The notes under the pieces are model-generated. The model did no database searches. It was given only the letters and a program-made list of their open reading frames with translations, and was not told where the DNA came from. This document shows, piece after piece, positions 2,644 to 35,424 of a stretch of 38,709 nucleotides of DNA (position 1 is its first letter; each line of letters opens with the position of its first letter). The translations under genes were made by a program, and so were the position numbers. The stretch lies in NCBI GenBank assembly GCA_947380605.1, contig CANCRO010000017.1, positions 1 through 38,709 of the forward strand. The letters are read 5' to 3'. This stretch comes from Chitinophagaceae bacterium. GTDB taxonomy: Bacteria; Bacteroidota; Bacteroidia; Chitinophagales; Chitinophagaceae.

Positions 2644-3924
2644 ATGATCGATAGAACATCGGCTCCCTTGATAAAAGACGCCATCGAATTTGACCTGAAG
2701 CTAAAGCCATACCAAAAGATGGTGCTCAATAATGGCGTAGAAGTGTATGCTATTAATGCGGGTGAACAAGAACTGCTACAATTAGAAATTGTTTTTTATG
2801 CGGGTAATAGTTACGAAGCCAATAAGGGCGTAGCATTGGCTACCAACTTCATGTTGAAAAACGGCACTTCTACTAAGACGGCTTTTCAGATCAATGAACA
2901 TTTTGAATATTACGGCGCTTATTGCAATCGGTCTTGTTATAATGAAACCGCCGTTTTATCCTTACATACTTTAAATAAACATTTGAATGTATTACTTCCC
3001 GTAATGCGTGAAATCATTACCGACGCTAATTTTCCTGAATCAGAGTTAGATATTTTTAAACAAAATAGTCAACAAAAATTACAGGTCAATTTAAAAAAAT
3101 GTGATTTTGTTGCTAACCGTTTAATCGATGCGTATTTGTTTGGTGAAGACCATCCTTATGGGAAATATTTGTCTGCCGAAAATTATCAAGCACTTAGTAC
3201 CGATCAACTAAAAGCACATTTTCAGCAATATTATGTCAATGGGCGGGCGGTGATTTTTGTAGCAGGTAAATTACCAGCTGATTTATTTGAACAACTTAAC
3301 CAGCAATTTGGTGATTTGACAATCACTAAAAATGGGCAGTCATTAACGGCTCAACAGTTGACTCCTGCTGTTCAAAAAAAGCAACATATTTCTAATGACC
3401 CCAATGGAGTGCAGGCTGCTATTAGAATAGCAAGGCCTTTTCCTAATCGCCATCATCCTGATTTTATGAATGTGATGGTGCTGAATACTTTGTTTGGAGG
3501 ATTCTTTGGTTCAAGACTCATGAGTAATATTCGTGAAGACAAGGGCTACACCTATGGTATACATAGTTATGTACAAAATCATATCCAGGAAAGTGCTTGG
3601 ATGATTAGCACCGAAGCGGGTAAGGAGGTAAGTGAGGCCACGGTTACAGAGGTTTATAAAGAAATGGACTTATTGAGAAATACCTTGATTGAAGAAGAAG
3701 AATTGCTATTGGTTAGAAATTATATGATTGGTTCCATTCTAGGCGACCTAGATGGCCCTTTTCAAATTATTGGCAGGTGGAAGAATATTATTTTAAATGA
3801 TTTGGATGAAAAATATTTTTATGATTCTATCAAAGTTATAAAGACAATTTCTGCTGAAGAATTGAAAGCGCTTGCTGAAAAATATTTGAAGCCAGCAGAT
3901 TTTTACGAATTGGTAGTTATTTAA
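2644..3924 (+). CDS. M16 family peptidase-like protein, non-catalytic partner
   Basis: A second M16-fold protein, 426 residues, 55 bases downstream and probably cotranscribed with the catalytic subunit. Where HxxEH should be (about residues 62-75) the sequence reads GVALATNFMLKNG, so zinc cannot be bound there. The C-terminal half keeps the conserved segment GGFFGSRLMSNIRED followed by KGYTYGIHS (R291, R297, Y302/Y304), which in family M16 supplies the Arg/Tyr pair that positions substrate for the partner's active site. This is the usual division of labour in heterodimeric M16 peptidases, so absence of zinc ligands is not decay. No signal peptide is evident. The start ATG at 2644 follows an AT-rich spacer without a clear Shine-Dalgarno. 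Confidence 0.9.
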   Translation: MIDRTSAPLIKDAIEFDLKLKPYQKMVLNNGVEVYAINAGEQELLQLEIVFYAGNSYEANKGVALATNFMLKNGTSTKTAFQINEHFEYYGAYCNRSCYNETAVLSLHTLNKHLNVLLPVMREIITDANFPESELDIFKQNSQQKLQVNLKKCDFVANRLIDAYLFGEDHPYGKYLSAENYQALSTDQLKAHFQQYYVNGRAVIFVAGKLPADLFEQLNQQFGDLTITKNGQSLTAQQLTPAVQKKQHISNDPNGVQAAIRIARPFPNRHHPDFMNVMVLNTLFGGFFGSRLMSNIREDKGYTYGIHSYVQNHIQESAWMISTEAGKEVSEATVTEVYKEMDLLRNTLIEEEELLLVRNYMIGSILGDLDGPFQIIGRWKNIILNDLDEKYFYDSIKVIKTISAEELKALAEKYLKPADFYELVVI

Positions 3925-9105: not shown

Positions 9106-10299
9106 TTAATCAATCACTTTTTCTATGATTTTGCCAGTTTGTTTGTTCTTTAAAATTAACTTTTTTGTTCCATAGTGAGTCATCTCTTCTTTAATTAGAT
9201 AATGATCTTTATCATATTCTATCAAATGACTTTCTTTACTTAATCCGGTTTTACCGCGCCAAATATCTAACTGAATGGGTTCCCATGATTTAGATTTGGC
9301 AGATTTGTAAGCTGCATCAATGATGGCATTAACGATGTATCCATCATAAAAAGTTTCTCTAGGAGCGGTACCATTTTCCATGCAGTTAAACATTTCTGCA
9401 AACATGTGATTGTATCCAAGCTCATTCAGCTCATCTCCCACAGGAAAAAGCCAGCCACTATTACTCTCTGCTTTTTCTGAAACATAATCTGCCCCTTTTC
9501 CGGTAGTAAACATTTCTAGTCCTGTGCGTAAAAAATTATTTACCCAGATGGTGCCTTCTGTTCCCATTACTTCATCTCTAAGATCAAGGCCACCACGAAA
9601 TGTCCAACTTACTTCAAACTGAGCCATAGCCCCATTTTCATACTTAACCAATCCGATAGAATGATCTTCTGCATCGATAGGTTTTACTTGCGTATCGGCC
9701 CAGCACATGACTTCTATTGGTTTAATATCTTTACCAATATAGGTGCGCGTAATTTCAATGCAATGACAACCTAAGTCAAGGATACATCCACCACCTGCTT
9801 TTTCTATATCCCAAAACCAATCACTGTGCGGACCAGGATGTGCTTCTCTTGATTTAGCCCAAAGAATTCTTCCGAGTGCTCCATTCTTTACACTTTCATA
9901 GGACTTTAAAAACTTGGGTGTGTACACAAGGTCTTCGAGGTAGCCGTTAAAAATACCCGCTTCTTCTACGGCAAGCAACATGCGTTTTGCTTCTGTTGCG
10001 TTGCGTCCTAATGGCTTGGTGGTTAGCACTGCTTTTTTATGTTTGCAGCACAACATCACTGCTTCTTCATGTAAGTGATTGGGAAGTGAAATACATACTA
10101 CATCTACGTCTGGATGAGCAATGGCTTCTTCTAGATTAGTAGTATAGCGGTCGCATTGGTAGTCAGTTGCAAATTTTTTAGCAGCTTCTTCTCTGCGCGA
10201 ATAGATAGAAATAATTTTATCCTTACTTCTTTGTCCCTGTAATGAATCGGCATAAAATCTTCCGATAAATCCGGAGCCGAGCATAGCAATTCTTTTCAT
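9106..10299 (-). CDS. Cytoplasmic Gfo/Idh/MocA family oxidoreductase
   Basis: 397 residues, no signal peptide. The start MKRIAMLGSGFIGRFYADSL carries the NAD(P)-binding GxGxxG motif (GSGFIG). The usual EKP motif reads TKP here (LTTKPLGRN, about residue 95), keeping the catalytic lysine. The C-terminal domain has GGGCILDLGCHCIEITR, where the family usually has its active-site Asp/His. The protein is longer than average because of a C-terminal extension after residue 350 rich in Lys and Glu. It lies between the permease gene and the exported isomerase gene, so a cytoplasmic step in catabolism of the imported compound is inferred. Substrate not identifiable. Confidence 0.9.
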   Translation of the reverse strand: MKRIAMLGSGFIGRFYADSLQGQRSKDKIISIYSRREEAAKKFATDYQCDRYTTNLEEAIAHPDVDVVCISLPNHLHEEAVMLCCKHKKAVLTTKPLGRNATEAKRMLLAVEEAGIFNGYLEDLVYTPKFLKSYESVKNGALGRILWAKSREAHPGPHSDWFWDIEKAGGGCILDLGCHCIEITRTYIGKDIKPIEVMCWADTQVKPIDAEDHSIGLVKYENGAMAQFEVSWTFRGGLDLRDEVMGTEGTIWVNNFLRTGLEMFTTGKGADYVSEKAESNSGWLFPVGDELNELGYNHMFAEMFNCMENGTAPRETFYDGYIVNAIIDAAYKSAKSKSWEPIQLDIWRGKTGLSKESHLIEYDKDHYLIKEEMTHYGTKKLILKNKQTGKIIEKVID

Positions 10300-10348
10300 G
10301 TAGTTCTTTATTTTTTTAAATAGATGTTTATATTTTTAACGGCAATGA

Positions 10349-11593
10349 TTAAATCGCAACTGTTTTATTTCTCGTGTTGTCTTTAAAAAGAAAAATAAAT
10401 ACCACTAATACAATCAAGGCAATCCCTGCAGGGACCAACCATACGCTGGTCCAGTTAGTAACCCCCTCAGTATTGGTATACATTTTTTGAACATAGCCAG
10501 AAATAATGGATCCAATGCCCATTCCTAATCCGTAGGTGGCCAATGAAATTAATCCTTGCGCTTGCGATTTTGTTTTTTCACCGGCTTTCAAATCGGTATA
10601 AATCATTCCGCTTACAAAGAAGAAATCATAGCAAACACCGTGAAGTAAAATCCCTGCATACAACATCCACTCAGCTACATCTGCATTTCCATATCCAAAG
10701 AAAAGGAATCTAGCGATCCACGCCAGCAATCCCGAGATTAACATCCATTTTATTCCAAAACGTAAATAGGCAATTGGTAGTAGTAGCATAAATAAAACTT
10801 CTGATGCTTGGCCAAGAGACATTTTATTTTCTACATAAAAAGTATTCGGTAATGCTTGTCCAGGATGTGCTGAAACGAAAGCAGCTTTATAAGCATCTGT
10901 GATGGCTGGGTTAGCCATTGCATAATAAAAAGAAAGTGGAATACAAATTAATAAAGAGGATAGAAAAAATATGGCGAATGAACGGTCTTTAAATAATACG
11001 AATGCATCTTTACCAATAATCTGTCCAAAGCTAACGGGTCCTTTTGCAGAAGGAGGTGTGTTAGGTAAAGTAAAGGAGTAAGTTCCAATTACTAGAGCGG
11101 TGATAGCGGATACATAAAAAATCGTATTCTTATCACCCCATCCCATGTAGCCCACTAAATTAGTAACAGCGATCCAAGCAACGGTCCCCATTACACGAAT
11201 TAAAGGAAATTCTTTTTGCGGGTTGGTCATTTGTCGCATGGAGATAGAGCTAGTCAATGCGATGGTAGGAGCAAAGGTTAAGCAGTACAACAACATAATC
11301 CAATAAAAGGTATTATAATCAGTAATAGTAGTGAGTAGCAGCAAAAGTCCTGCTCCCACTAGATTTAAAACACCCAATACTTTTTGCGCTGCAAAAAACC
11401 GATCTGCAATCATACCCGCAATAAAAGGAGAGATGATCATGGCGATAGAGAAAGTAGCATAAATATTTCCTACTTGTCCGCCATCGAAACCTATCGAAAA
11501 TAAATATTTTGAAAGTTGTCCATACCATGCACCCCATACTACGAACTGAAGGAACATCATTACTGAAAGCTGAATTTTGGTAGATGATTTCAT
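10349..11593 (-). CDS. MFS permease, nucleoside:H+ symporter-like (PF03825 type)
   Basis: 414 residues from the ATG at 11593, with about 12 membrane helices. The opening KIQLSVMMFLQFVVWGAWYG, then GFDGGQVGNIYATFSIAMI and FIAGMIADRFFAAQKVLG, is characteristic of the NupG/XapB-like family. A reading starting 38 codons further upstream (11707) adds a hydrophilic, charged extension unlike the family, so I use the internal Met. In Bacteroidota, members beside Gfo/Idh/MocA and TIM-barrel isomerase genes probably carry sugars or sugar derivatives rather than nucleosides; that is inference from context. It is the first gene of the minus-strand operon; its promoter should lie in 11594-11800, but I see no clean TAnnTTTG there. 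Confidence 0.87.
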   Translation of the reverse strand: MKSSTKIQLSVMMFLQFVVWGAWYGQLSKYLFSIGFDGGQVGNIYATFSIAMIISPFIAGMIADRFFAAQKVLGVLNLVGAGLLLLLTTITDYNTFYWIMLLYCLTFAPTIALTSSISMRQMTNPQKEFPLIRVMGTVAWIAVTNLVGYMGWGDKNTIFYVSAITALVIGTYSFTLPNTPPSAKGPVSFGQIIGKDAFVLFKDRSFAIFFLSSLLICIPLSFYYAMANPAITDAYKAAFVSAHPGQALPNTFYVENKMSLGQASEVLFMLLLPIAYLRFGIKWMLISGLLAWIARFLFFGYGNADVAEWMLYAGILLHGVCYDFFFVSGMIYTDLKAGEKTKSQAQGLISLATYGLGMGIGSIISGYVQKMYTNTEGVTNWTSVWLVPAGIALIVLVVFIFLFKDNTRNKTVAI

Positions 11594-11801
11594 TATTTTT
11601 TTATTGATGAGTGAATGGCAAAGGCCAATTAAATGATAGTTAAGCAATTTAATTTTTACTACCCGTCGTGCTTCCGCTAAATGAATGTCGACTAAAATAA
11701 GTGGCAATTATTTTTATAGCAGAAGAGTCGACCAAGTTTCTTTTCCGAAGATATATTTTTGATTTAACTCATCCTAAAAAAATCTTCAAGAAATAGCCCC
11801 C
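11594..11801. other. Intergenic upstream region of the sugar operon
   Basis: About 200 bases between the permease start and the tandem array. It is AT-rich, has no supported gene and no clear -7 box on the minus strand. Two GTCGAC hexamers (near 11686 and 11727) flank it in part, but nothing suggests a function. A C-run followed by CCTAAACCCC leads into the array. Confidence 0.5.
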
Positions 11802-12186
11802 CCTAAACCCCTAACCCCGAAATAAAAAGAACAAACAATAATCATACTCTCCTAAACCCGCATTGAAAAGCACAAACAATAATCATACTCTCCTAAACCC
11901 GCGTTTAAAAACACAAATAATAATCATACTCGCCTAAACCCGCATTTAAAAGCACCCTCAATCCGAAAGCTCTTCTAAACCCGCATTGAAAAGCACAAAC
12001 AATAATCATACTCGCCTAAACCTCTAAACCCGAAATATAAAGGTCAAACAATAATCATACTCCCCTAAACCCGCATTGAAAAGCACAAACAATAATCATA
12101 CTCTCCTAAACCCGCATTGAAAAACACCCTCAATCCGAAAGCTCTTCTAAACTCGCAATAAAAACCCCACTCAATAATTATACTCG
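11802..12186. repeat. Tandem array of 41/49-bp units with higher-order order
   Basis: Nine contiguous units, each opening with CCTAAACC or TCTAAAC: 11802-11850 (49 bp), 11851-11891, 11892-11932, 11933-11973, 11974-12014 (41 bp each), 12015-12063 (49 bp), 12064-12104, 12105-12145, 12146-12186 (41 bp each), then a partial opening at 12187. Most units end in AATAATCATACTC. Units 4 and 8 carry a different second half, CACCCTCAATCCGAAAGCTC. Units 2 and 7 are identical; both 49-bp units share an extra 8 bases; units 5 and 9 both start with T and end with G. The order 49-A-A-B-A then 49-A-B-A shows a duplicated block. Unit length is not a multiple of three and there are no spacers, so it is neither coding nor CRISPR. 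Confidence 0.93.
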
Positions 12187-12197
12187 CCTAAACCTTT

Positions 12198-12205
12198 TAT
12201 CTTTG
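12198..12205 (+). promoter_or_regulatory. -7 promoter box of pdxH
   Basis: TATCTTTG matches TAnnTTTG exactly and begins 11 bases after the last complete repeat unit, so the region where a -33 element would lie is inside the array. The ATG of pdxH is at 12224. Confidence 0.6.
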
Positions 12206-12223
12206 AATAATAAACCTCGAAAA

Positions 12224-12871
12224 ATGACTCCAGAAGCGCTTTCAAATATTCGCAAGGATTACACCTTGCATTCGCTTAACGAGGAAGACGTAACGGCTTC
12301 GCCCATAGAGCAGTTTGCAAAATGGTGGGAAGATGCAGTGGCCTCTCAGATTGTTGAAATGAATGCGATGACTGTTGCTACGGCTGATAGTAGAGGAATA
12401 CCTGATGCGAGAATTGTATTACTGAAAGCTTTTGATGAAAAGGGTTTTGTTTTTTTTACCAATTACAATAGTGCCAAGAGCAAGCAGCTAGAAGAAAATC
12501 CAAATGCCACTTTATTATTTTTCTGGAAAGAATTGGAGCGGCAGGTTCGCATTAGTGGGGTAGCAGAAAAAATTACCTTAAAAGAAAGTATTGATTATTT
12601 TGATAGTCGCCCTGAAGGAAGTAAAATTGGTGCCTGGTCTTCACCTCAAAGCATGGTGGTGGCGGGCAAAGCCTTTTTGAAAGAAACCTTTGACTATTAT
12701 GCAGAGCGCTTTAAACATGGCGCAATACCCAAGCCACCACATTGGGGTGGGTACCGTATAAAGCCTTCTAGTATTGAGTTTTGGCAGGGTAGGCCTAGCA
12801 GAATGCATGACAGAATTTTGTATTCAGAAACTACTGTAGGTAGTTGGAAGATTGAGAGATTGGCACCTTAA
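12224..12871 (+). CDS. pdxH: Pyridoxamine/pyridoxine 5'-phosphate oxidase
   Basis: FMN enzyme that oxidises PNP or PMP to pyridoxal 5'-phosphate; cytoplasmic. 215 residues, the usual length. Visible family segments are RIVLLKAFDEKGFVFFTNY, NSAKSKQLEENP, FFWKELERQVRISG, then SPQSMVV, and the C-terminal GYRIKPSSIEFWQGRPSRMH with the ending WKIERLAP, which is nearly invariant in PdxH. The ATG at 12224 is chosen because a TTG-initiated extension from 12203 would overlap the -7 box. It is convergent with the helicase gene and lies immediately downstream of the tandem array, which could influence its upstream promoter region. Confidence 0.95.
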   Translation: MTPEALSNIRKDYTLHSLNEEDVTASPIEQFAKWWEDAVASQIVEMNAMTVATADSRGIPDARIVLLKAFDEKGFVFFTNYNSAKSKQLEENPNATLLFFWKELERQVRISGVAEKITLKESIDYFDSRPEGSKIGAWSSPQSMVVAGKAFLKETFDYYAERFKHGAIPKPPHWGGYRIKPSSIEFWQGRPSRMHDRILYSETTVGSWKIERLAP

Positions 12872-12928
12872 CCGATTTTTAAAAATTGTGTGAGCAAGCC
12901 ACTCGGAAGTCTTGGAATTTGGATTTTT

Positions 12929-14767
12929 CTACAACTCAAATTCCCAAACAGTTCGATACCAACCTTTGTTTTCTATATAAGTTAAAAAGGAATGATAGAA
13001 GGCATCTCCTCCAATGGTAGCACTATCGCCTATTACAAAAAGTTGTTCTTTGGCTCGAGTAATGGCCACATTCATTCTTCGGCAATCTTTTAAGAAACCA
13101 ATATCACCTTCGTCATTACTGCGCACCAGTGATAATATAATGGTGTGTTGCTCCTGCCCTTGGAAACTATCGATGGTACTGATGCGCATTTCTTTCGGCA
13201 AGACTTCCTTTGCCGCCGCTACCTGTCCTGCATATGGAGAAATGAAAGCGGTTTTTAAGGGATCTAAATTTTCGGAAGCAATTAGTTTTAGCGCTATCGA
13301 TAACTCTCCTTCATTTTGTAAGCTCATTCCATTACTTCCATTGGCTTCGTTTAATCCCGACCCTGCAGTATCTATAAAAATCAGGTGAACGCCGGTATCC
13401 ATAAGGTGGCCAGCCGTTTGAAGTAGATTGTTATAAAAATAGTTGCTTGAAAATCCTGCAATGGTTGCTCGCATCCGATATTGCGTATTCAATAAAAAAA
13501 CAGCGTTCACTCTTTCAATACAAACTTCTAGAATAGAATTTTGCAAACCCATTCTTGCCGCTTCAAAGTTCAACACGGTAGGGGGTAATTGCAAATGATC
13601 ACCCGCCAAAACATATTTTTCAGCTAATGGGAAAATACACCATGCCATAGGTTCTATACATTGTCCAGCTTCATCAATTACTAAGGTATTAAAAGTAATG
13701 TGTTTTATTTTTGAATCGTACAATCCAATTGGAGTGCCAGCAATTACTTGTGCAGATAAATAAAGTTTTTCTTCATTGTAGGCCTGTAATTTTTTTATTT
13801 CTGTTCGAATACTTTTTACTTCTTTAAACAAAAGATTGCGTTGTTCTCTTTCAGCTTTTCCAAAACTCCTTTTATATTTTAACGCCATTTTCCTAAACTC
13901 TTCTGCTCTAATTTTTAGTTGCTTGATTTCTTTTTGCTGCTTGCTGTTAGCGAGTTTTCCTTCGGGAGTATGCGCAAACAAAACCTCGTCTACCTTGCTG
14001 GTATTTCCAACCCTTAGTACTTCAATACCTTGTAATAGCAGGCCTTTGGCAATATTATCGACAGCAGTATTACTAGGTGCAGATACCAATATTTTTTCTC
14101 CTGCATGGATTAACTGAAGAATCCCCTCTATTAAAGTGGTGGTTTTACCTGTGCCCGGTGGTCCATGAACGATGGTAATATTTTCATTTTGAGTAATTGC
14201 CTGAACCGCTTTCTGCTGACTTTCATTGAGTCGTTGATTTTTATAATTCAGCGGAAGGGTTTGGACTGAAGTAGTGATTTTTTCTACCGGTGACTCACCG
14301 TGAATTTTTTCAAATAGTTTTTGGGAGAGTAGATTATTTTCCACCTCATTCAAAGCCGATTTTAAAATGGTAGTGGTTCTTTGATCAGGAGCTAGTTTTA
14401 TTCCTACTCCATTATCTTCTATCCAATCTGGAAAGTCTGGAGCATACAGTCTAAACTCTCCTTGTTTACCCTCTAAACTAATGAGTACACCTTTGATGGG
14501 TTCTTCTCCAGAAAAAAAACATTCAATTGCCGCGCCATCTTTGAACTGATTGGTCTCTGAAGGAAAATTAAGTCGAAAAGTTATTTCTGGGTAATCTGCA
14601 TAACCGAAATTTTTTCTAGTGATCATGATTGGATGCAAAGCCAATCCTTCTGCCTTTAATGATTTGAGTGTATGCTGTTGATCTAAACTATATCTTTTTA
14701 TTTGCTCTTTTTCTTCCAGCTCAATGCATTGCAGTAATTTATTGATATATGGATGGGAAGAAGACAT
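12929..14767 (-). CDS. Superfamily 1 DNA/RNA helicase, UPF1/IGHMBP2-like
   Basis: 612 residues from the ATG at 14767. N-terminal OB-like region to about residue 180, then Q-motif LNESQQKAV, Walker A GPPGTGKT (202-209), APSNTAVDNI (motif Ia), a charged helical insertion (about 275-330, rich in Lys/Glu and probably coiled coil), DEAGQ (Walker B, about 365), GDHLQLPPTV (III), QYRM (IV), STIDSFQGQE (V) and NVAITRAKE (VI). All helicase motifs are intact. Eukaryotic relatives act on RNA and ribosomes; bacterial members are poorly characterised and have no fixed name. A longer reading to 14842 adds 25 residues not typical of the family. It is divergent from the CDP-alcohol phosphatidyltransferase gene. 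Confidence 0.9.
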   Translation of the reverse strand: MSSSHPYINKLLQCIELEEKEQIKRYSLDQQHTLKSLKAEGLALHPIMITRKNFGYADYPEITFRLNFPSETNQFKDGAAIECFFSGEEPIKGVLISLEGKQGEFRLYAPDFPDWIEDNGVGIKLAPDQRTTTILKSALNEVENNLLSQKLFEKIHGESPVEKITTSVQTLPLNYKNQRLNESQQKAVQAITQNENITIVHGPPGTGKTTTLIEGILQLIHAGEKILVSAPSNTAVDNIAKGLLLQGIEVLRVGNTSKVDEVLFAHTPEGKLANSKQQKEIKQLKIRAEEFRKMALKYKRSFGKAEREQRNLLFKEVKSIRTEIKKLQAYNEEKLYLSAQVIAGTPIGLYDSKIKHITFNTLVIDEAGQCIEPMAWCIFPLAEKYVLAGDHLQLPPTVLNFEAARMGLQNSILEVCIERVNAVFLLNTQYRMRATIAGFSSNYFYNNLLQTAGHLMDTGVHLIFIDTAGSGLNEANGSNGMSLQNEGELSIALKLIASENLDPLKTAFISPYAGQVAAAKEVLPKEMRISTIDSFQGQEQHTIILSLVRSNDEGDIGFLKDCRRMNVAITRAKEQLFVIGDSATIGGDAFYHSFLTYIENKGWYRTVWEFEL

Positions 14768-14886
14768 GGCGGTAAAATTACCACCGATATAAACAATAAA
14801 AAAATATTCACATTGACTAAGTGATAGTTTCATGATGGACAAAGAGGACAGTTCAAAAAAAATGCCCCGATGATGCTAGATAGCAC

Positions 14887-28046: not shown

Positions 28047-29111
28047 ATGACAAAGATTTTGTTGATAGCGATCGTAATAATGATTTTCATAGTCATCTTT
28101 CAAATTTCGAAAGCAAGTGAGTATGTAAGTATTTTAAAAGGCGAGGAAAAAGCACGCAAGCAAAATAATAGAATCAATGCGTTTCTATTAGTAGTTTTTC
28201 TTGTACTAGGACTTATTGGTTGCTGGTGGTGTAATAATTTATACTACGGTAAAACTTTATTTGTTCAAGGAGCTGCTTCAGAAATGGGTGAAAAAATTGA
28301 CTTGATGCTTTACATTACCATCGCGGTTACTGGCGTGGTATTTTTCGTAACTCAAGTTCTTTTATTTTGGTTTTCATTTAAGTACCAAGAAAAAGATGAT
28401 CGTAAAGCGTATTACTTTCCTCACAATACTAAATTGGAATTATTGTGGACTACGGTTCCTGCAATTTTCTTAACTGTGTTAGTGGTGTTTGGTTTAAAAT
28501 ATTGGTTTAAAATGACTGGGGAGGCGCCTCAAAATTCAATAGTAATTGAAGTGACTGGCCATCAATTTGGATGGGAATTCCGTTACCCAGGTCCTGATAA
28601 AATATTAGGCAAAAAAGATTATAGACTAACTAAAGGGGCTAATTCATTAGGAGTAGATTTTAATGATCCAGCTAGTTTGGATGATATGCATGTGCCGGCA
28701 ACCGTTCATATTCCAGTTGGAAGACCTGTAAAGTTTGTGATCAATGCACAAGATGTTATACATGACGTTGGTTTATCTCATTTCAGAATGAAGATGGATG
28801 CAGTGCCAGGCATACCAACTACTTTATGGTTTACCCCTTTGTATACTACTGAAGAAATGAAAGCTCGTACGGGTAATCCAAATTTCGTTTATGAAATTAG
28901 TTGCGACCAGATGTGTGGAAAAGGACACTTCTCTATGCGTGGAGTAATTGTAGTAGATACACAAGAGGAATACTTGAAATATTTGGCAACATTGGAACCA
29001 GAATATTGGACCATTTTTCCAGATAAAAAACCAGGTGCTCCAAAACCAGCAATTACCGATACTACAAAAAGTAAAGCTTCACTTGCGGCTATAATGCCTG
29101 CAGGTAATTAA
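28047..29111 (+). CDS. coxB: Cytochrome c oxidase subunit II
   Basis: 354 residues. The N-terminal part has four hydrophobic segments (about 1-20, 45-65, 88-112, 132-150), two more than the minimal subunit II hairpin. The periplasmic cupredoxin domain carries the CuA ligands in DVGLSHFRMKMDAVPG (His) and in CDQMCGKGHFSM (two Cys, His and Met, about 286-297). There is no C-terminal cytochrome c domain, so this is not a caa3-type fusion and needs an external donor such as ActE. The C-terminal tail is Pro/Lys rich. It is followed 26 bases later by coxA. Confidence 0.94.
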   Translation: MTKILLIAIVIMIFIVIFQISKASEYVSILKGEEKARKQNNRINAFLLVVFLVLGLIGCWWCNNLYYGKTLFVQGAASEMGEKIDLMLYITIAVTGVVFFVTQVLLFWFSFKYQEKDDRKAYYFPHNTKLELLWTTVPAIFLTVLVVFGLKYWFKMTGEAPQNSIVIEVTGHQFGWEFRYPGPDKILGKKDYRLTKGANSLGVDFNDPASLDDMHVPATVHIPVGRPVKFVINAQDVIHDVGLSHFRMKMDAVPGIPTTLWFTPLYTTEEMKARTGNPNFVYEISCDQMCGKGHFSMRGVIVVDTQEEYLKYLATLEPEYWTIFPDKKPGAPKPAITDTTKSKASLAAIMPAGN

Positions 29112-34095: not shown

Positions 34096-34806
34096 ATGAA
34101 CAGAAGGGCCTTATTGGGATTGTTATTGGCGTTTTTTTTTCCGCTTACGGGTTACTATTTAGTAAAATACTATAGTGACAAGGCGGTCAATATGCCCCGA
34201 CGTTATTTTTATGATAGCGTAATCGTAACTGAAAAAAACGGAAAAATTTCTACGGATACCATTTGGCATAAGGCGTCCAACATGACTTTCACTAATCAAT
34301 TGGGAAAAACCGTTACGCTAGATTCTTTGAAGGGTAAAATTTTGGTGATCGACTTCTTCTTTTCAAGGTGCCCTACTATTTGTCCAAGTATGGCAAAAAG
34401 TATGAAGCGACTTCAAAATTCCTTTGTCAATAGCAAGGATAGTATCGTGCAATTTATCTCTGTTAGCATTGACCCTATTCACGATTCTGTACCACAATTA
34501 AGAAAATTTGCCAATCAGTTTACCTCTAATCATGATAGCTGGTGGTTTGTAACGGGCGATAAAAAAAGTATCTATGATTTTGCCATACATGAACTTAAAG
34601 CCAATATAGCTGACGTAGGCGCTGATACGGCCTTTCCTCATACAGAACATTTTTTCTTATTAGATAGAGATAGAGTGGTAAGAGGATGGTATAATGGATT
34701 CGATACCATTAAGCAGGCTAAGCTAGTAAGAGATATTCCTTTGTTGATGTTGGAAAAAAGAAAAAAAAGAACCTTTAAAGAATTTTTAAATGAACTTTTT
34801 GGCTAA
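34096..34806 (+). CDS. SCO1/SenC-family copper chaperone
   Basis: 236 residues. One N-terminal membrane anchor (about 5-23) precedes a periplasmic thioredoxin-like domain with the copper motif CPTIC (C92, C96), the SIDPIHDSVPQL segment, and the third ligand H182 in FPHTEHFFLLD. SCO proteins deliver copper to, or reduce, the CuA site of subunit II, matching coxB upstream. The ATG lies 27 bases past the cox terminator, so it either has its own promoter (not clearly seen) or is reached by read-through. The DUF420 gene follows 33 bases later. Confidence 0.92.
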   Translation: MNRRALLGLLLAFFFPLTGYYLVKYYSDKAVNMPRRYFYDSVIVTEKNGKISTDTIWHKASNMTFTNQLGKTVTLDSLKGKILVIDFFFSRCPTICPSMAKSMKRLQNSFVNSKDSIVQFISVSIDPIHDSVPQLRKFANQFTSNHDSWWFVTGDKKSIYDFAIHELKANIADVGADTAFPHTEHFFLLDRDRVVRGWYNGFDTIKQAKLVRDIPLLMLEKRKKRTFKEFLNELFG

Positions 34807-34839
34807 TGACTTTATTGCCTGAAAATCTAAAATAAATAT

Positions 34840-35424
34840 ATGTTACAACCTTCCATTGAAAAAAATGACCAAAAAGCCAAATTATTAATCTGGACTGTTT
34901 CCATCATCGTTTTTGTAGCGGTTGCATTTTTATCAAAATATAAGTTAACTATTGATCTTGGCTTTAATGCCCATTTATTTGCAAAGGCCAATGCAGTAAT
35001 TAATTCGGTAGTGGCTATTTTATTGGTGGTAGGTTTGATTACCATCAAGCAAAAGAAATATTCTTTGCATAAAATGATTATGATTACCGCCATGGTGTTA
35101 TCGGTATTATTTCTTTTAAGTTATATAGGACATCATTTATTGGCTGGAGAAACTAAATACGGCGATATGAATCATGATGGAGTAGTGGATGATGCGGAGG
35201 TAATGCAAGCGGGAGGCTTAAGAATGCTGTATTACATCATTTTGATAACACATATTCCTTTAGCTGCAATCATTTTACCTTTTATATTATTTACTGCTTA
35301 CCGTGCGTTAACAGGGGAGTATGAGCAACATAAAAAGTTGACTAGGATTACTTGGCCAGTATGGTTTTATGTAGCTATTACCGGGGTAATTGTTTATTAT
35401 ATGATTAGCCCTTATTACAGCTAA
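34840..35424 (+). CDS. DUF420 (CtaM-like) membrane protein with an inserted EF-hand loop
   Basis: 194 residues, about five membrane helices (13-32, 50-70, 78-98, 128-152, 170-190). DUF420 features include NAVINSVVAILLVVGLITIK, the LSYIGHHLLAGETKYG segment and the ILITHIPLAAIILPF helix, with conserved His residues that may bind haem or metal. CtaM-type DUF420 proteins are needed for haem-A oxidase assembly in Firmicutes; the same role is inferred here from adjacency to SCO and cox. Oddity: between helices three and four is DMNHDGVVDDAE (109-120), a complete 12-residue EF-hand loop (D1, N3, D5, G6, D9, E12). Confidence 0.88.
   Translation: MLQPSIEKNDQKAKLLIWTVSIIVFVAVAFLSKYKLTIDLGFNAHLFAKANAVINSVVAILLVVGLITIKQKKYSLHKMIMITAMVLSVLFLLSYIGHHLLAGETKYGDMNHDGVVDDAEVMQAGGLRMLYYIILITHIPLAAIILPFILFTAYRALTGEYEQHKKLTRITWPVWFYVAITGVIVYYMISPYYS

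Follow-up and report, generated by a model that had tools for sequence, protein, structure and literature searches.

A lineage-specific intergenic minisatellite upstream of pdxH in a Chitinophagaceae bacterium

Introduction

A pdxH gene and a divergently oriented transporter gene of a Chitinophagaceae bacterium (assembly GCA_947380605.1) are separated by an array of tandem repeats, raising the question of what this array is made of, how it arose and whether it matters for the genes on either side. The array lies in a stretch of 38,709 nucleotides (contig CANCRO010000017.1), which is referred to here as the window. The first-pass annotation of the window described nine units of 41 or 49 bp arranged in duplicated blocks, and proposed that they form a length-variable, recombination-prone and possibly mobile element that could modulate the pdxH promoter. 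Here, the structure of the array is compared with that of similar arrays in the same genome and in related genomes, and with the orthologous spacers of sister species.

Results

The array consists of an octamer and a 33-bp module

The elementary part of the array is an octamer, (Y)CTAAACY, which is followed by a 33-bp module with the consensus CGAATTTAAAAGnACAAACAATAATnATACTCn; the 41-bp unit is the sum of both (8+33) (Table 1). CTAAAC starts at positions 11803, 11852, 11893, 11934, 11975, 12016, 12024, 12065, 12106, 12147 and 12188, giving steps of 49-41-41-41-41-8-41-41-41-41. TRF called a repeat at 11810-12194 with a period of 41 and 9.2 copies and in addition reported a 172-bp period with a score of 534. 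The scores of the head-to-tail units (362 and 534) are far above chance, since 500 dinucleotide-shuffled versions of the intergenic region scored at most 74, confirming that a tandem array is present. The start at 11802 holds, but the end moves from 12186 to 12194 because one further octamer follows. Likewise, the 49-bp form exists but is not a different unit, since it is a 41-mer with one extra octamer ahead. The identity of units 2 and 7 was confirmed, and the proposed duplication of a whole block agrees with the self-comparison of the array: a shift of 172 bp gives 149/172 matches, and a shift of 213 bp gives 81% identity.

Table 1. Coordinates of the array, its parts and the flanking features in the window
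Feature	Position	Strand	Description
Whole array	11802..12194	+	nine 33-bp modules, one octamer ahead of each; extra octamers at start, middle and end
Unit 1	11802..11850	+	49 bp: octamer CCTAAACC, degenerate octamer CCTAACCC and 33-bp module
Unit 2	11851..11891	+	41 bp; identical to unit 7 (12064-12104)
Unit 3	11892..11932	+	41 bp
Unit 4	11933..11973	+	variant B module (...CCCTCAATCCGAAAGCTC)
Unit 5	11974..12014	+	41 bp
Free octamer CCTAAACC	12015..12022	+	creates the second "49-bp form"
Units 6-9 (A, A, B, A)	12023..12186	+	second block
Terminal octamer CCTAAACC	12187..12194	+	overlooked in the first-pass annotation
TATCTTTG, -7-like box	12198..12205	+	conserved in the sister species
pdxH, pyridoxamine 5'-phosphate oxidase	12225..12871	+	Pfam PNPOx_N, PNP_phzG_C; ATG conserved in the sister species
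Divergent gene, nucleoside:H+ symporter-type MFS transporter	10349..11594	-	Pfam PF03825; from the likely ATG

The CTAAAC core is nearly invariant and the module is about 72-78% identical, although that core also served in part to select the units. By eye, three cores with mutations were noticed in the arrays on contigs C7 and C24. The + strand of the pdxH array contains 30% C and 7% G and folds no better than shuffled sequences (z = 0.06). Stop codons occur 9-10 times per forward frame and 6-10 times per reverse frame. We infer that placement at gene edges is tolerated for two reasons: the C-strand has little G and no structure, and CTAAAC/GTTTAG contains the stops TAA and TAG; with so many stops in all frames, an array may abut genes without long read-through products.

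Several other readings of the unit were considered and rejected. A conserved RNA fold of the unit was found on neither strand; the whole array reaches a z of -4.2 on the reverse strand, which we treat as a repeat effect, single units having a mean z of -0.45. Rfam gave no match in 11500-12500 at E<=1. Sigma-70-like sites that recur per unit on the minus strand are consensus matches of the repeat and not promoter evidence. Selection for G-quadruplexes is not favoured, as the dinucleotide that separates octamers varies (CC in 44 of 113 cases at the G019 loci examined), and a CRISPR array is rejected because there are no spacers and the units are diverged. Short tandem duplications are also found elsewhere in the window, at 28489-28513 (13 bp x 1.9) and 3778-3826 (25 bp x 2.0).

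A putative pdxH promoter box next to the array is conserved

The pdxH start is most likely the ATG at 12225, judged by its retention in the sister species, and the TTG at 12203 would be a mechanical start of the open reading frame only. Upstream of this ATG lies TATCTTTG, which fits the -7 consensus of Bacteroidota, TAnnTTTG. It is separated from the array end by 3 bp and not by the 11 bases given previously. The box is kept in the sister species, but the sequence directly upstream is not, since it belongs to an array in only one of the two species. The suggested promoter-modulating role is not supported, and the array probably has little or no influence on pdxH or on the divergent transporter operon.

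Similar arrays are dispersed at gene edges in the same genome

A search for the 41-mer in its own and related genomes, as recommended in the first-pass annotation, detected dispersed copies. The genome (2.88 Mb, 161 contigs) contains seven more arrays, as read from the stretches around the matches; six have the 41-bp unit and a diverged one on C24 has a 40-bp unit, giving eight loci in total. Strong 41-mer units number 39 at seven loci including the window, and all solitary hits are sub-threshold. The arrays sit at the edges of about eight genes, among them rfbA (TIGR01207), three collagen-like secreted-protein paralogues (Pfam Collagen) and pdxH, together with a sugar-isomerase-like gene and a regulator-like gene on C89 (both named by eye). 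At the collagen-like paralogues the ATG follows directly after the last octamer, and on C89 the first TAA of the array is the end of the upstream gene. Different array loci have no flanking sequence in common, except at the paralogous collagen-like genes, and neither terminal inverted repeats nor a shared leader or tail were seen at them.

Arrays of GTGAATG-type heptamers were observed directly left of 41-mer arrays at loci L003, L005, L007, L009 and L159. At L159, complementary heptamers (CATTCAAC/TTGACC) lie on the right, so that the 41-mers form the loop between two inverted heptamer arms.

Orthologous spacers differ in copy number

Among 93 congeneric species, the 41-mer is present in three, the species of the window, G045 and G019, and it was not found in the sampled genomes of other genera of the family. 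G019 has some 25 loci, which consist mainly of octamers in tandem, with about ten or twelve copies at most. Octamer triplets also occur in named genomes of Ferruginibacter, other Chitinophagaceae, other Bacteroidota and scattered outsiders. The genus of the window is probably Ferruginibacter or close to it.

The pdxH protein of G019 is 87% identical to that of the window, and its contig is colinear with window positions 9851-11782 and 12195-14836, the flanks being 80-81% identical. Between these flanks, the spacer measures 412 bp in the window versus 141 bp in G019, where it contains five octamers and no 33-bp module. Length variability and proneness to recombination, both suggested earlier, are thus supported by comparison between species; an identical unit count everywhere with no copies elsewhere, which would have spoken against them, was not observed in this comparison. 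Two other sites show growth in place. In the window, the spacer at 34800-34845 is without an array and the gene stop near 34806 reads GGCTAATGACTT..., while its G019 counterpart reads GGCTAAACCCCTAAACTCC..., with five octamers from the conserved stop GGCTAA to the next ATG. In a spacer between convergent genes, CTAAAC is absent from one of the three species, single in another and present in twelve copies in the third. These orthologous spacers indicate growth in place and not the insertion of a finished element.

Units from orthologous loci of different genomes share 78% identity, as much as units inside a single array (79%) and more than those from different loci of one genome (72%), which argues that arrays are mostly inherited in place. 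The 33-bp module is nevertheless common to several loci and therefore points to some past exchange between loci.

The presence of this module at several unrelated loci would also be expected of a mobile element carrying a minisatellite, similar to BrickBuilt of Porphyromonas gingivalis. We disfavour this explanation and consider it very improbable: outside the paralogous genes no leader or tail is shared, terminal inverted repeats were not seen, solitary strong units are lacking, and comparison of the orthologous spacers points to replacement or in-place growth. The earlier label "mobile" is therefore not retained.

Arrays tend to be oriented with respect to neighbouring genes

The gene at the 3' end of the C-strand is nearer to the array in 24 of 34 arrays (p=0.024), whichever direction the gene runs, and the same bias was found in the complete genome of a congener, G059, for 26 of 35 arrays of another octamer, YCAAATCN (p=0.006); these p-values are indicative only, since loci were chosen for repeats, gene calls were simple ORFs and the arms of one spacer are not independent. 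Several arrays end exactly at an ATG. The arrays of the window's genome fit a forward layout ahead of the start codon, and several G019 and G045 arrays face stop codons. Together with the nearly invariant core, the 3'-end proximity bias and the arrays that end at an ATG count against a purely neutral repeat.

These features could reflect a cis-regulatory array, in which CTAAAC is bound by a protein of the S1, Csp or CsrA type that acts on DNA or mRNA, and the number of copies modulates the neighbouring gene. The conservation of the core is in line with this, as are the 23 of 34 arrays that have the C-strand in mRNA sense between two genes running the same way. Moreover, each of the three species with the 41-mer has arrays that run up to the ATG of collagen-like paralogues and arrays just before rfbA. 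We nevertheless regard such regulation as unlikely. Six of the 34 arrays read against both neighbours and three are located between convergent genes; no function common to the downstream genes is evident; the promoter box follows the pdxH array, which is thus outside the pdxH mRNA; and the sister species retains pdxH with five octamers.

Some related loci carry inverted arms

GTTTAG/CTAAAC inverted arms were found at named Ferruginibacter and other Chitinophagaceae loci. At about 1430-1500 of a locus of Ferruginibacter sp. Go_SlAct_bin_317 (L189), the two arms form a nearly perfect long hairpin of -40.9 kcal/mol. A gene of 118 aa encoding a 23S_rRNA_IVP/four-helix-bundle protein (PF05635, TIGR02436) beside rfbA has inverted octamer arrays on both sides in three species, at L166 (G000 C66), L161 (G045 C191), and L140 and L151 (G019); in the genome of the window, a contig end cuts the left arm. 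G059 is without the 41-mer and has outward-pointing gene-edge arrays of its own octamer, where the (YCAAATCN)n runs in its spacers (loci L313-L330) often have a left arm (GATTTGRN)n, resulting in outward-pointing inverted arms.

The pdxH array could accordingly be one arm of an inverted-repeat element, (GTTTAGRR)n-spacer-(CTAAACYY)n, that forms RNA or DNA stems between genes, acting in RNA processing, insulation or termination, with the left arm absent at pdxH. The long stem in Ferruginibacter, the arms around the 23S_rRNA_IVP gene and the same outward layout of a different octamer in G059 fit this idea. It appears quite unlikely for the pdxH array itself, which has no left arm, is unstructured on its + strand and shows no consensus fold at the unit level on either strand.

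Discussion

The tandem units exceed chance, and at pdxH and two further loci the species differ in copy number, as expected of a bacterial minisatellite or VNTR. Literature searches on CTAAAC-type repeats and on tandem repeats of Ferruginibacter yielded nothing relevant. Comparable repeats exist in other bacteria. In heterocystous cyanobacteria, lineage-specific long and short tandem repeats (LTRR and STRR) are dispersed in intergenic DNA. The arrays described here share the lineage-specific, dispersed and intergenic nature of these tandem repeats, but phylum and sequence are unrelated (LTRR as cited in PMC2408588).

The intergenic heptamer direct repeat TAACTGA occurs in Beggiatoaceae, Cyanobacteria and five Bacteroidetes (MacGregor, 2015; PMC4679880). 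It is mostly forward-oriented just ahead of start codons, overlaps stop codons in some cases and carries stops in all three frames, some relatives lack it, and recognition by an S1, Csp or CsrA type protein was suggested (PMC4679880). The arrays analysed here are likewise made of short tandem units at gene edges, often before start codons in the genome of the window and sometimes across stop codons; the forward repeat has stops in three frames, and copy number varies between relatives, some of which are without repeats. However, the TAACTGA unit has 7 bp, whereas here an 8-bp CTAAACYY core is joined to a 33-bp module; there is no sequence relation, the 41-bp composite is confined to few species of one genus, and the array is not a member of that family.

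In BrickBuilt of P. gingivalis, a minisatellite of 23-bp units is contained in a MITE that has a leader, a tail and inverted ends (Klein, 2015; PMC4596501). The 41-mer arrays, too, are dispersed intergenic minisatellites of a bacterium of the Bacteroidota, made of imperfect tandem repeats without spacers and restricted to few species. A BrickBuilt_6 copy also adjoins pdxH, which is probably a coincidence. Unlike BrickBuilt with its 23-bp unit, the arrays have no conserved leader, tail or inverted ends, and they do not belong to it. The pdxH array thus resembles the TAACTGA repeats in layout, departs from BrickBuilt by lacking its ends and is a lineage-specific intergenic minisatellite.

As to its origin, we consider it probable that the array is a near-neutral composite in which an octamer seed expanded in place and a 33-bp neighbour was co-amplified. 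In this lineage, slippage or short unequal exchange would multiply the (Y)CTAAACY octamer at the edges of genes, and at some loci a neighbouring stretch of about 33 bp would be caught between octamers. The resulting 41-bp composite would then be amplified and the 172- and 213-bp blocks duplicated later. At pdxH, the array fills the spacer and leaves 3 bp before the -7 box. How the same module came to several unrelated loci is a matter of guesswork; octamer-seeded ectopic gene conversion is our guess.

More broadly, a process at the level of the genus or family might write lineage-specific octamer arrays (CTAAACYY, YCAAATCN) at the borders of genes. Such arrays would point outward, in many cases as inverted arms with the potential for long RNA stems; the layout and not the octamer sequence would be maintained, and the array in the window would be one composite arm. 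This proposal is tentative and rather unlikely.

Nothing unusual follows for pdxH itself. Since sister species have the same spacer with no array, a short one or a long one, the origin of a bacterial minisatellite can be traced from a seed of the size of a stop codon. If the outward layout with different octamers holds across whole genomes, this would suggest that the intergenic DNA of Chitinophagaceae is shaped by a process not yet described.
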